NCBI GenBank assembly: GCA_913058185.1
Contig: CAJXQX010000021.1
Coordinates: 1-53,492, forward strand
Source of the DNA: an uncultured Verrucomicrobiota bacterium
GTDB lineage: Bacteria; Verrucomicrobiota; Verrucomicrobiia; Opitutales; Opitutaceae
Length of the DNA: 53,492 nt
Reading direction: 5' to 3'
This document shows, in pieces, positions 31,707-37,483 of this stretch. Numbering within the stretch: the first letter of the stretch is position 1; the number at the start of each line of letters is the position of its first letter. The notes beneath the pieces were generated by a model, which was not told the origin of the DNA, made no database searches, and saw only the letters and a list, made by a program, of their open reading frames with translations. The translations under genes and the position numbers were made by a program.

Positions 31707-32069
31707 ATGAAAACGAATTCCAAATCCAAGCTGCTGCAAAAGCGCAAGTGGCGCATCCGCAAAAAAGTGAACGGCACGGCCGCTCGCCCGCGCCTCTCCG
31801 TAAAATTTACCGCCAAGCACATCTATGCCCAAGCCGTCAACGACGACGCCGGCGAGACCATCGCTTTTATTTCCAGCCTCGACGTAGATCTGCGCAAGCA
31901 GAAGCTCGCGGCCAATGTCGCCAGTGCCGAGACCCTCGGCAAAGCATTCGCTGATAAAGCAACTGCCGCTGGCATCTCCGAAGTGGTGTTCGACCGCAAC
32001 GGAGCCCGCTATCATGGCAAGGTGAAAACCTTTGCCGACGCCGCCCGTGCAGGTGGTCTCAAATTCTAA
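31707..32069 (+). CDS. rplR: 50S ribosomal protein L18
   Basis: A 120-residue L18 with the [25 protein letters not shown] start and the closing [26 protein letters not shown]. It binds 5S rRNA with L5. AAGG precedes the ATG at good spacing. Seven bases separate its stop from rpsE. Confidence 0.98.
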
Positions 32070-32076
32070 GCATCAC

Positions 32077-32859
32077 ATGGCTATGAGCACTCCTTCTGCT
32101 ACTCCTCCTTCTAATACCCCAGCTGGCCCAAACGCTGGACCTAGCGGTCCTGCTGGTCGTGGCCCTGGTGGTCCCGGTGGCCGTGGTCCCGGTGGCCGTG
32201 GTCCCGGTGGCCGTGGTCCCGGTGGTCCCGGCGGCCGTGGTCCCGGCGGTCCTGGTGGCCGTGGTCCTGGCGGCCGTGGTCCCGGTGGTCGTGGTCCCGG
32301 TGGTCGTGGTCCTGGTGGCCGTGGTCCTGGCGGTCGTGGTCCCGGCCGTGGTCGTGGTCGCGACAATGGCGCCTCTCAAGACGAAGGTCCGGAACTCTTC
32401 GAGAAAGTCGTCTTCATTAACCGCTGTTCTAAAGTGGTTAAAGGTGGACGTCGCTTCAGCTTCTCCGCTCTCGTCGTCGTAGGTGACGGCAAGGGTCAAG
32501 TAGGCGTGCATCTCGGTAAGGCCAATGAGGTCCCCGAGGCCATCCGCAAGGGCACCGAAGGCGCCCGCAAGCACATGTTTAAGGTTCAGATCAAAAACGA
32601 TACGATCCCTCACGAAGCTTTAGGCTTGGCTGATGGTGGTAAGGTTTTGGTTCGTCCCGCCACACCCGGAACTGGCCTTATCGCTGGTGGGGGAGTGCGT
32701 GCGGTTCTCGAGGCGGCTGGAGTGCACAATGTGCTCACCAAGTCCCTCGGCTCTAATAATCACCTCGCCGTGGTTAACGCAACCGTCGCCGCTCTTAAGC
32801 AACTCCGCGTGCATGCCACGATCAAGGCGCTGCGTAAGGCTAAAGGCGACGAAGTCTAA
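32077..32859 (+). CDS. rpsE: 30S ribosomal protein S5 with RGPGG-repeat N-terminal extension
   Basis: A 260-residue protein whose C-terminal 155 residues are S5 ([43 protein letters not shown], ending in a basic helix). Before this lies an about 105-residue extension: a Pro/Ser/Thr start (1-27), then about ten RGPGG units (residues 28-95) and a short acidic linker. Bacterial S5 is normally about 165 residues. The extension is read in the same frame with no stop, and the ATG lies 7 nt after rplR, so it is translated. S5 lies at the mRNA entry site, where an Arg/Gly tail could hold RNA. No Shine-Dalgarno sequence. The usual next gene, rpmD, is missing. Confidence 0.95.
32158..32361 (+). repeat. 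In-frame 15-nt repeats encoding RGPGG in rpsE
   Basis: The unit is close to GGTGGCCGTGGTCCC, repeated with synonymous third-base changes and some extra CCCGGTGGT steps, giving RGPGG and PGG units. The mixture of codons suggests either old repeats under protein-level selection or repeated slippage. Copy number could differ between strains without breaking the frame. Confidence 0.9.
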
Positions 32860-34990: not shown

Positions 34991-35006
34991 AAAATAACCC
35001 TTTACT

Positions 35007-35480
35007 TTGGCTGAGGCCGAATCCACGTTCTGGCCTCTTTCGCTCGGCGCAAGCCCTGCGAAGGCCAAGTTACTGATCCTCGGATCAGCCCCGGCAGCCC
35101 TTGCTGTCCGATCCCGTTCTTTGAATCTCGAGCACGTCTCTTCTGCCCAACTGATGGAGCAGGAGATTTCGCGTCAAACCCCCGCCGGTGTGCAAACCCA
35201 GCGGGCGATAGGACAGGGACTTTCGGTCCCTAATCAAATCCTATTCGGCGTTATGCGCCGTTGGTTTTGGGCGCGTAAACCCGATGCGGGTTTTGTCCTA
35301 GCGGACTTCCCGGCTACGCTGCTCCAAGCTCAAGTGTTCGATGAGTGGCTCGAAACTCGCGGCTCCGGTCTGACCGGTGTCTGGGTTTCTGATGAAGCAT
35401 CCGCTTCGCCAGTCCTCATCAACCATTATCGCACTCTCGGTCTCGACGTTGTCCTGACTGAGCAACCGCTCGCCGCCTGA
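35007..35480 (+). CDS. Adenylate kinase-like protein without P-loop, probably inactive
   Basis: At the usual adk position lies a 157-residue protein that still aligns with adenylate kinase: LLILG-, HVSSAQLMEQEI (adk: IxTGDMLR), GLSVPNQILFGVMRRW (adk: GxLVxDExVxxLV) and GFVLADFPATLLQAQVFDEWL (adk: GFLLDGFPRTxxQAxxLD). The catalytic parts are lost: the GxPGxGKG loop reads GSAPAALAV, the Asp and Arg of STGDMLR are missing, the FPRT Arg is Ala, and the LID and last core segments are absent. TTG is the only reasonable start. Its stop overlaps the map ATG (TGATG), implying coupled translation. A functional adk must lie elsewhere. Confidence 0.8.
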   Translation: MAEAESTFWPLSLGASPAKAKLLILGSAPAALAVRSRSLNLEHVSSAQLMEQEISRQTPAGVQTQRAIGQGLSVPNQILFGVMRRWFWARKPDAGFVLADFPATLLQAQVFDEWLETRGSGLTGVWVSDEASASPVLINHYRTLGLDVVLTEQPLAA

Positions 35481-36277
35481 TGGCTATTCCCATCAAAAAC
35501 GAGCGAGCAATCGCGCAAATGCGCGATGCCTGTGCGATCGCCTCCACTGTTCTGTATAAACTACGCGATAGTGTTGGCCCAGGGATCACTACTTATGACT
35601 TGGACCAAATTGGCCGCGAACTTATCGCAGGGCTCGGAGCCCGCAGCGCATGTTACGGTTACCAAGTCGACTCACGCCGCTTTCCGGCCTTTACCTGCCT
35701 CTCCGTAAATGAAGAGGTGGTTCACGGCATCGGTTCTCTCAAACGCGTCTTACACGACGGCGATATCATCGCCCTCGATCTAGTCGTTGAGTATGAGGGT
35801 TACATCGGTGATAATGCCATGACGGTCGCCGTCGGCAAAATCTCCGACGCCCGCGCCAAGCTACTCCGAGTCACCGAAGAATCTCTTCGACTCGGAATTG
35901 CCCAAGCCACCGTTGGTAATCGCATCGGAGACATTTCGCACGCTGTGCAGACTCACGTTGAAAAACACGGGTTTGGCGTAGTCCGCGATATGGTCGGTCA
36001 CGGTGTTGGAACCTCAATGCATGAGGAACCACAAATCCCCAACTTCGGTCGCCGAGGTAAAGGGGAATTAATTAAGCCAGGCATGACGCTCGCCATCGAA
36101 CCGATGGTGAATGTCGGATCTTGGCGCACCCGCACCCTCGCCGACGGTTGGACGATTGTTACCGCTGACAGTAAAGACTCCGCTCACTTTGAGCACACCG
36201 TGCTCACCACCGAACGAGGCCCGGAGGTTCTTACCCTTCCTCGACTCGATTCACCCCTTTCAATTCATGCCGTTTAA
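35480..36277 (+). CDS. map: Methionine aminopeptidase, type I
   Basis: A 265-residue enzyme that removes the initiator Met from nascent proteins. The five metal ligands are all present: D100, D111, H174 (GHGVG), E207 (IEPM) and E238 (FEHT). H82 in NEEVVHG matches the substrate-binding His. The motif around the first Asp (ALDLVVEYEGYIGDNAMT) differs from the common NIDV. The start overlaps the preceding stop by one base. After map, infA and rpmJ are missing and only 63 nt precede rpsM. Confidence 0.96.
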   Translation: MAIPIKNERAIAQMRDACAIASTVLYKLRDSVGPGITTYDLDQIGRELIAGLGARSACYGYQVDSRRFPAFTCLSVNEEVVHGIGSLKRVLHDGDIIALDLVVEYEGYIGDNAMTVAVGKISDARAKLLRVTEESLRLGIAQATVGNRIGDISHAVQTHVEKHGFGVVRDMVGHGVGTSMHEEPQIPNFGRRGKGELIKPGMTLAIEPMVNVGSWRTRTLADGWTIVTADSKDSAHFEHTVLTTERGPEVLTLPRLDSPLSIHAV

Positions 36278-36724: not shown

Positions 36725-37483
36725 ATGGCTGAAAAAAATTCCAAACCAGAAAACGAAGAGACCAAGCCCGCCGCCGCCCCTGAGGCCGCTGCACCAGAGG
36801 CTCCGTCTGCTCCTGCCGCTGAAACCCCGGTCGCTGCTGAAGCACCTGCGGTCAAAGCGCCTGCTGCTGAAAAAGCACCTGCTGCCAAAAAGGCGCCTGC
36901 TGTTAAAAAAGCACCCGCGGCTAAAGCACCTGTCGCTGAAGTCCCTGCGGACAAAGCACCTGTTGCAAAAGCACCAGCCGCTGAAGATCCCGCTGCCGAT
37001 GCATCCGCTACTGAAGGGGCTCCTGCTGAGAAGCCTACTGAGCTAATTGGTGGAGTGCCTAAGCAACCCACCGCTGAAGATTTACTTAAAGAAGAGCTGG
37101 GTGGCGTTAAGATCCGTAAGGCTAAGGGCTCCAAAAACGTCATCAGTGGTGTCGTTAATATCCTCGCTTCCTTCAATAATACGATCGTCTCAATCACTGA
37201 TCCTAAGGGCAACGTGATCGCTTGGGCCAGCGCCGGTAAGTGTAACTTCCGCGGTTCCCGCAAGTCTACCGCCTACGCCGCTCAAATCGTATCGCAGAAT
37301 GCCTGCCGCGCTGCCATGGCTCACGGCCTCAAGGACGTGGTCATCAAGGTCAACGGTCCTGGACTCGGTCGCGACAGCGCGGTCCGCGCTATCCAAGCGA
37401 TCGGCCTCGAGGTTTCCTCCATCATCGACGTCACTCCGGTGCCGCACAACGGCTGCCGGCCTCCTAAGCGCCGTCGCGTCTAA
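36725..37483 (+). CDS. rpsK: 30S ribosomal protein S11 with long Ala/Pro/Lys N-terminal extension
   Basis: The last 125 residues are S11 ([81 protein letters not shown]). The first 127 are an extension rich in Ala, Pro, Lys and Glu with PAAKKAP-like repeats, similar in style to histone-H1-like bacterial tails. The ATG lies 12 nt after rpsM and the frame is open throughout with no later plausible start, so the extension is translated. S11 lies at the 30S platform near the 16S 3' end where the anti-Shine-Dalgarno pairs. No Shine-Dalgarno sequence precedes it. Confidence 0.95.

Follow-up and report, generated by a model that had tools for sequence, protein, structure and literature searches.

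Why does an open reading frame related to adenylate kinase (Adk) persist between secY and map when it appears to have lost the motifs of the enzyme? We address this question in the window, i.e., the whole 53,492-nucleotide stretch of DNA analysed, which derives from an uncultured member of the Opitutaceae, and in its relatives. The sequence-only reading of this locus had proposed that the protein is retained for a function of its own, for example as a nucleotide sensor. We consider it fairly probable, instead, that the dead adk persists as an open frame, coupled to map and carrying a cis-acting RNA ahead of that gene.

The adenylate kinase relative between secY and map

The frame starts with TTG, encodes 157 amino acids and occupies the slot in the order secY, ORF, map:

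35000-35006, plus strand: CTTTACT motif behind secY and ahead of the ORF (81-slot DNA alignment)
35007-35480, plus strand: dead adenylate kinase ORF, host of the RNA element (Pfam ADK, motif losses, AlphaFold2, Foldseek)
35480-36277, plus strand: map (methionine aminopeptidase), overlapping downstream gene (Pfam M24, E 5.4e-48)

The intergenic motif is kept in most slots, with CTTTAC at least 90% identical and the final T at least 75% identical in the DNA alignment of 81 slots. The ORF protein matches Pfam ADK over residues 38-121 (E 1.2e-10). Taking the motif names P-loop GxPGxGKGT and DGFPRT as our assumed catalytic reference, we aligned it with P-loop-bearing Adks: the P-loop site reads GSA-PAALAV, the LID is deleted, and ADFPAT stands where Adks have DGFPRT, so that the Arg is gone. 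This agrees with the sequence-only reading, which had recognised the secY-adk-map slot as occupied by a dead relative of Adk, and we find the frame to be conserved. The loss that it had also claimed at the NMP site is seen in the window, where the motif STGDxxR is replaced by SSAQLME, and does not extend to the relatives as a whole: in the alignment, the Arg position holds R in one of eight genus members and in 14 of 20 other relatives, and loss of this Arg is thus partly lineage-specific.

An AlphaFold2 model of the ORF protein, computed from an 81-row alignment, has a pLDDT of 85.6, and a Foldseek search of the PDB with this model returns adenylate kinases (best 4ntz, E 1e-7). The dead protein is therefore predicted to retain the Adk CORE fold. 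In summary, it resembles adenylate kinase (PF00406) in the place that it occupies, which is that of adk in outgroup genomes, in sequence and in predicted fold; it differs in having neither P-loop, FPRT Arg nor LID, in its length and in the conserved RNA structure that lies inside it.

The ORF stop and the ATG of map share one base (TGATG), as the sequence-only reading had pointed out. Among the 80 named loci, which are the best 80 of 165 confirmed, a stop-start overlap of 1 or 4 nt at the ORF/map border occurs in 71, and all 80 have an open frame across the match and a map-like N-terminus downstream. We dropped the missing Shine-Dalgarno sequence as evidence for coupling; most of the ribosomal-protein-cluster genes that we checked also have none.

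Homologues between secY and map, the check that had been suggested for this locus, occur in 30 of the 37 genomes of the family, the window's own included; G020 holds one weaker, divergent copy. None of the 30 family loci has a stop within the match region (L033 is truncated by the end of its contig), and a map-like start follows in 29 of the 29 whose contig reaches far enough. The outcomes named beforehand as refuting the sequence-only reading, a lack of conservation among relatives or stops in sister strains, were thus not observed. Across a 387-genome sample of the phylum, the ORF profile recovers 30 of the 37 genomes of the family, each at E 2.2e-45 or better; all matches outside the family are weaker (best 9.3e-17). 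In the family genomes G015, G019, and G026, secY is followed directly by rpsM. Here map lies on a different contig from secY (G015, G019) or about 750 kb away (G026), and the secY-rpsM junction also occurs in family members G268, G332, and G353. For G018, G021, and G022, the thresholds used gave no match to either secY or map.

Outside the family, we read 14 loci with Adk-like matches (L206 was not translated in this reading). A P-loop Adk (GxP[GA]xGKGT) stands behind secY in 10 of these, with map next in 9 of the 10; three have Adk and map with no secY match in the stretch, and in G051 the Adk lies outside the slot. Of 16 map loci from other families of the order, 15 have secY upstream at a distance of -2 to 226 nt, with no dead Adk match between the two genes in any of the 15; the sixteenth locus (G037) has no secY there.

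The sequence-only reading also expected an active adk elsewhere. The window's own genome encodes a separate 427-amino-acid kinase (G000:C30:8159-9439; L002:1270-2553) with intact P-loop (GGAPGSGKGT) and DGFPRT; its C-terminal part gives no Pfam match above the cut-off. It is present in 51 of 57 relatives, and the three family genomes that lack it (G016, G017, and G023) encode an ordinary Adk of full length at another location. This long protein probably serves as the working kinase throughout the order. Single frames of 394-576 amino acids with two tandem Adk domains were seen in G001, G010, G013, G020, G021, G027, G030, G035, and G056.

Nucleotide conservation and a predicted four-way junction

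Within the genus, the ORF has a lower dS than map in all 28 pairs compared and a lower dS than secY in all 21 (0.35, versus 0.87 for map and 0.74 for secY, in the closest pair). Across 81 slots whose proteins are 40-91% identical to that of the window, runs of codons are near-invariant at all three positions (e.g., GAG CAC GTC TCT, AAA, GAT GCG, CCG GCT ACG, and CTC), and mean codon homozygosity is 0.72 in the ORF (42 columns), compared with 0.54 for the 115 columns of map and 0.52 for the 281 of secY. The DNA alignment of the slots resolves this into sharp conserved blocks, the first and last of which are both found in 80 of 81 slots. Over 1442 pairs, synonymous pS is 0.196 in the blocks, about one third of the level elsewhere (0.585 in codons 14-35, 0.527 in codons 58-88, 0.550 in codons 118-150, and 0.525 in map). 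A regionally low mutation rate was rejected, given that non-block synonymous sites evolve like map.

A true pseudoenzyme, i.e., an Adk-fold protein with a regulatory or structural role and secondary RNA features, would fit the predicted fold, the frame that is open in the loci read, and four residues (G145, T143, A108, and R118) that are conserved across the 81 slots while their codons vary freely. So would the dN/dS of 0.13-0.45 within the genus. Outside the RNA blocks, however, uncorrected pN/pS is 0.62-0.68 versus 0.33 in map (1442 pairs), so protein constraint there is weaker than in map, and selection on a protein cannot produce invariant codon choice. Moreover, one genome (G252) is without most of the kinase-like sequence and still has the RNA blocks. 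We therefore regard a pseudoenzyme as unlikely. The strongest selection acts on the nucleotides that form the RNA, and the idea that protein function is the main reason for retention is not sustained. Several near-invariant peptide motifs of the ORF coincide with near-invariant nucleotides; conserved pseudoenzyme sequences may thus be conserved as RNA, and protein alignments alone would misread them.

The frame itself is also held. The codon phase of the blocks is identical in 79 of 79 loci, and frame 0 alone is open across the element in all 74 sequences, any other frame being open in at most 41, which eliminates an overlapping gene in another frame. Together with the residues conserved over free codons, this points to a dual constraint, of which the RNA part is the stronger.

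Consensus folding links blocks A, B, and D, and P3 and the remainder of P0 were added by inspection. In the resulting model, the blocks are complementary as a predicted four-way junction (P1-P4) closed on the outside by P0:

35114-35125, plus strand: P0 5' strand, CCGUUCUUUGAA; pairs with 35337-35348 (11 pairs, 93.7% of cells paired)
35130-35137, plus strand: P1 5' strand, GAGCACGU, codons 42-45; complementary to 35316-35324
35139-35166, plus strand: P2 hairpin, UCUCC.../...GGAGA (35139-35147 with 35158-35166; 86.2% of cells paired)
35167-35173, plus strand: P3 5' strand, UUUCGCG; pairs with CGCG-bulge-AAA at 35272-35279
35216-35230, plus strand: variable hairpin in the arm of P3, window sequence GGGAC-UUUCG-GUCCC (read from sequence)
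35272-35279, plus strand: P3 3' strand, bulge at 35276 (74-row pair count)
35280-35286, plus strand: junction strand CCYGAUG between P3 and P4 (conservation in alignment)
35287-35312, plus strand: P4 hairpin, outer CGGG/CCCG, inner GUCC/GGAC (pair count, interior folding)
35316-35324, plus strand: P1 3' strand, ACGnUGCUC, variable base 35319 a bulge (alignment, pair count)
35337-35348, plus strand: P0 3' strand, UUCGAYGARUGG; lost in G252 (74-row pair count)

Across 74 sequences, 92.1% of 3182 pair cells are paired, versus 34-49% in slid controls and 90.4% after shuffling, and none of 500 shuffles reached the observed value. The covariation score (0.093 versus 0.073 shuffled) was likewise reached by 0 of 500. 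Eight pairs have two-sided changes, a number reached by 15 of 500 shuffles and, among six slid controls, exceeded in three (11, 11, and 9), equalled in two and undershot in one; such changes occupy 51 cells, with one slid control higher (64). The helices contribute unequally. All eight P1 pairs form in 74 of 74 rows, but they are invariant and show no covariation; P2 has two-sided changes in five of its nine pairs; P3 has none, with 94.8% of cells paired. In the register of the window, the outer P4 cells are 100% paired and the inner ones 72.6%, and relatives have other inner sequences and registers. One inner P4 pair is UA in 33, UG in 27 and CG in 12 of the 74 rows. When P4 interiors are folded, an inner stem of at least 3 bp appears in 74 of 74 (55 distinct forms) versus 1042 of 1480 shuffled interiors, with a mean energy of -10.8 versus -6.5 kcal/mol. 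Since P1, the base of P3 and outer P4 are almost constant, covariation is limited to P2 and the inner part of P4, and it is for these two that the compensatory changes in sequence indicate a conserved structural RNA. The P3 arm contains inverted repeats of differing sequence in several other loci, noted by eye rather than by formal count.

A further 17 genomes, not part of the defining set, have 93.2% of cells paired (34.5-46.8% in slid controls), with further compensatory changes; P1 pairing in both the 74 and the 17 rows partly reflects how these were selected, namely by their two P1 blocks. The consensus fold of 67 sequences has an energy of -19.8 kcal/mol, compared with a mean of -0.5 and a minimum of -3.0 for 20 column shuffles. 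The antisense consensus is nearly equal (-17.0), and it is the GU/UG pairs in P0, P2, and inner P4 that favour the sense strand. Relative to codon-shuffled copies, the element has a mean z of -2.81 (19 of 27 below -2), versus -0.49 for map segments (0 of 26) and -0.76 for secY segments (2 of 23). Minimum-energy folds of single sequences recover P2 in 61, P4 in 43, P3 in 28, P0 in 19, and P1 in 11 of 74; the closing helix P1 accordingly rests on invariant complementarity.

A site acting at the DNA level, such as one for a DNA-binding protein or for recombination, would also leave near-invariant nucleotide blocks and no covariation in P1. We judge it very unlikely in view of the GU pairs and the compensatory changes that P2 and inner P4 show, the folding excess over codon-shuffled copies, and the fact that block D, carried by 27 of 57 genomes, is single-copy in every one of them.

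The element matches no known RNA family in Rfam. At the gathering score, a search of the whole window with 4227 models gave two tRNAs only, both outside the slot; no match to the slot was obtained at E up to 5; and when six other loci were searched at E up to 1, the three matches obtained were far under gathering and none fell in the slot. Mimicry of rRNA was rejected for the genome's own 23S fragments, which the blocks match no better than shuffled sequence does; no 16S was found in this assembly.

Occurrence of the element and order of events

A covariance model detects the element in 28 of 30 family slot loci at E 1.4e-28 or better, with weak scores in G017 and G035. In the phylum sample, it detects 31 of 37 family genomes, with two marginal partial matches in 350 others; the marginal partial matches outside the family (G289, G133, and L208 (E 0.0079)) cover model positions 64-172 only, which is the P3 arm. 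The same model found no copy at a convincing score elsewhere in family and order genomes that have none in the slot, and no element in the secY-rpsM family members (best E 0.04), which indicates that the element is not essential for the alpha operon. Apart from the marginal partial matches, the element is found in this slot of one family only. Carriers among named, non-MAG records are Geminisphaera colitermitum TAV2, IMCC26134, Ereboglobus sp. PH5-10, and strain EW11, which opens the element to experimental testing.

One might suppose that a trans-acting structured RNA is processed from a secY-map transcript, with the ORF merely its host. The near-invariant blocks and multi-branched fold do look like an independent RNA, and the core outlives the decay of the protein in G252. 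Yet in the loci read the element is always upstream of map, it occurs nowhere else at a convincing score, and its frame is held in phase, all of which makes a trans-acting RNA quite unlikely.

A secY tree of 66 rows places the active-Adk loci as outgroup (100/100) to the family (95/93), within which the secY-rpsM group branches first, followed by G035 with G020, then G017 (93/85), and then the group with the RNA (99/92). The dead Adk of G035 (L032:1456-2157) has lost the P-loop and kept the zinc-LID cysteines, and on this basis it reads as an intermediate in decay, whereas G020 and G017 have neither. All three score weakly with the covariance model, with several model pairs broken, and their branching before the RNA group implies that the death of the enzyme preceded the RNA. 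Nested within the RNA group, G252 has a frame that is open but rewritten: the P1-P4 blocks are kept, much of the kinase-like sequence between and after them is rewritten or gone, the 3' strand of P0 is missing, and the ORF protein profile gives no match at E 1e-6.

The element is itself decaying in the Ca. Didemnitutus mandela symbiont (L140), and in some relatives the slot is empty or collapsed. A functionless, decaying relic would predict as much, but conservation across the family despite wide synonymous change elsewhere renders it scarcely credible. We regard as reasonably likely a stepwise conversion in which the P-loop was lost, then the LID, and a four-way-junction RNA was then fixed in the open frame, with the kinase sequence going in one lineage while the core was kept. 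The LID was apparently lost more than once. Living relatives still hold intermediates of the conversion.

Proposed role and known parallels

From the computed motif losses, the conservation of RNA structure and frame, and the order of events, we infer a mechanism for the cis-acting RNA in which the slot would be transcribed and the ORF, kept open with its stop overlapping the start of map, is probably translated. In the Opitutaceae lineage, which has a separate long P-loop kinase, the adk of the secY-adk-map cluster would have ceased to encode a working enzyme, and the dead frame would have stayed and later gained the sense-strand junction P1-P4 closed by P0. The RNA would most likely act in cis, through its folding or through a ligand or ribosomal protein bound at the junction (CCYGAUG / GCU). 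The state of the junction could control the passage of ribosomes in the ORF and thereby the coupled translation of map, and perhaps of the alpha-operon genes behind it. Some family members manage without the element, suggesting that it tunes rather than enables expression. A counterpoint to action in cis is that a translating ribosome would unfold the element.

Cis-regulatory RNAs are found in ribosomal-protein operons, one example being the E. coli uS4 site before rpsM. According to one account, E. coli uS8 binds the spc mRNA at the start of the rplE coding region and stops downstream translation by breaking translational coupling (PMC10931766). Our element is comparable to this site as a structured RNA in the same gene cluster, and it differs in having no Rfam match in the slot and in lying inside a dead enzyme ORF. 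A second parallel is offered by mammalian long noncoding RNAs described as fossils of protein-coding genes (PMC5577775), in which a protein gene has likewise turned into an RNA carrier; the present case is bacterial, within an operon-like cluster, and its frame is still open.

Neither a dead Adk in this slot nor such an RNA was described among the literature matches listed, and a term search of the main text of a 2010 survey of candidate RNAs (PMC2864571) gave no Opitut-, Verrucomicrob- or secY. An enzyme gene has apparently been reused as an RNA element just before the next gene. If true, this would be a traceable path in bacteria from a protein gene to the carrier of a structured RNA, its intermediate stages surviving in living relatives, and a class of RNA in a core ribosomal gene cluster that matches nothing in Rfam.

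Two further genes of the window encode proteins with long N-terminal extensions. Ribosomal protein S11 (36725-37483) has an Ala/Lys/Pro-rich extension of about 140 residues ahead of the S11 domain (residues 142-251), and S11 extensions also occur in relatives of the order. The ORF at 32032-32859, which probably encodes ribosomal protein S5, has a long N-terminal extension of Gly/Pro/Arg repeats.
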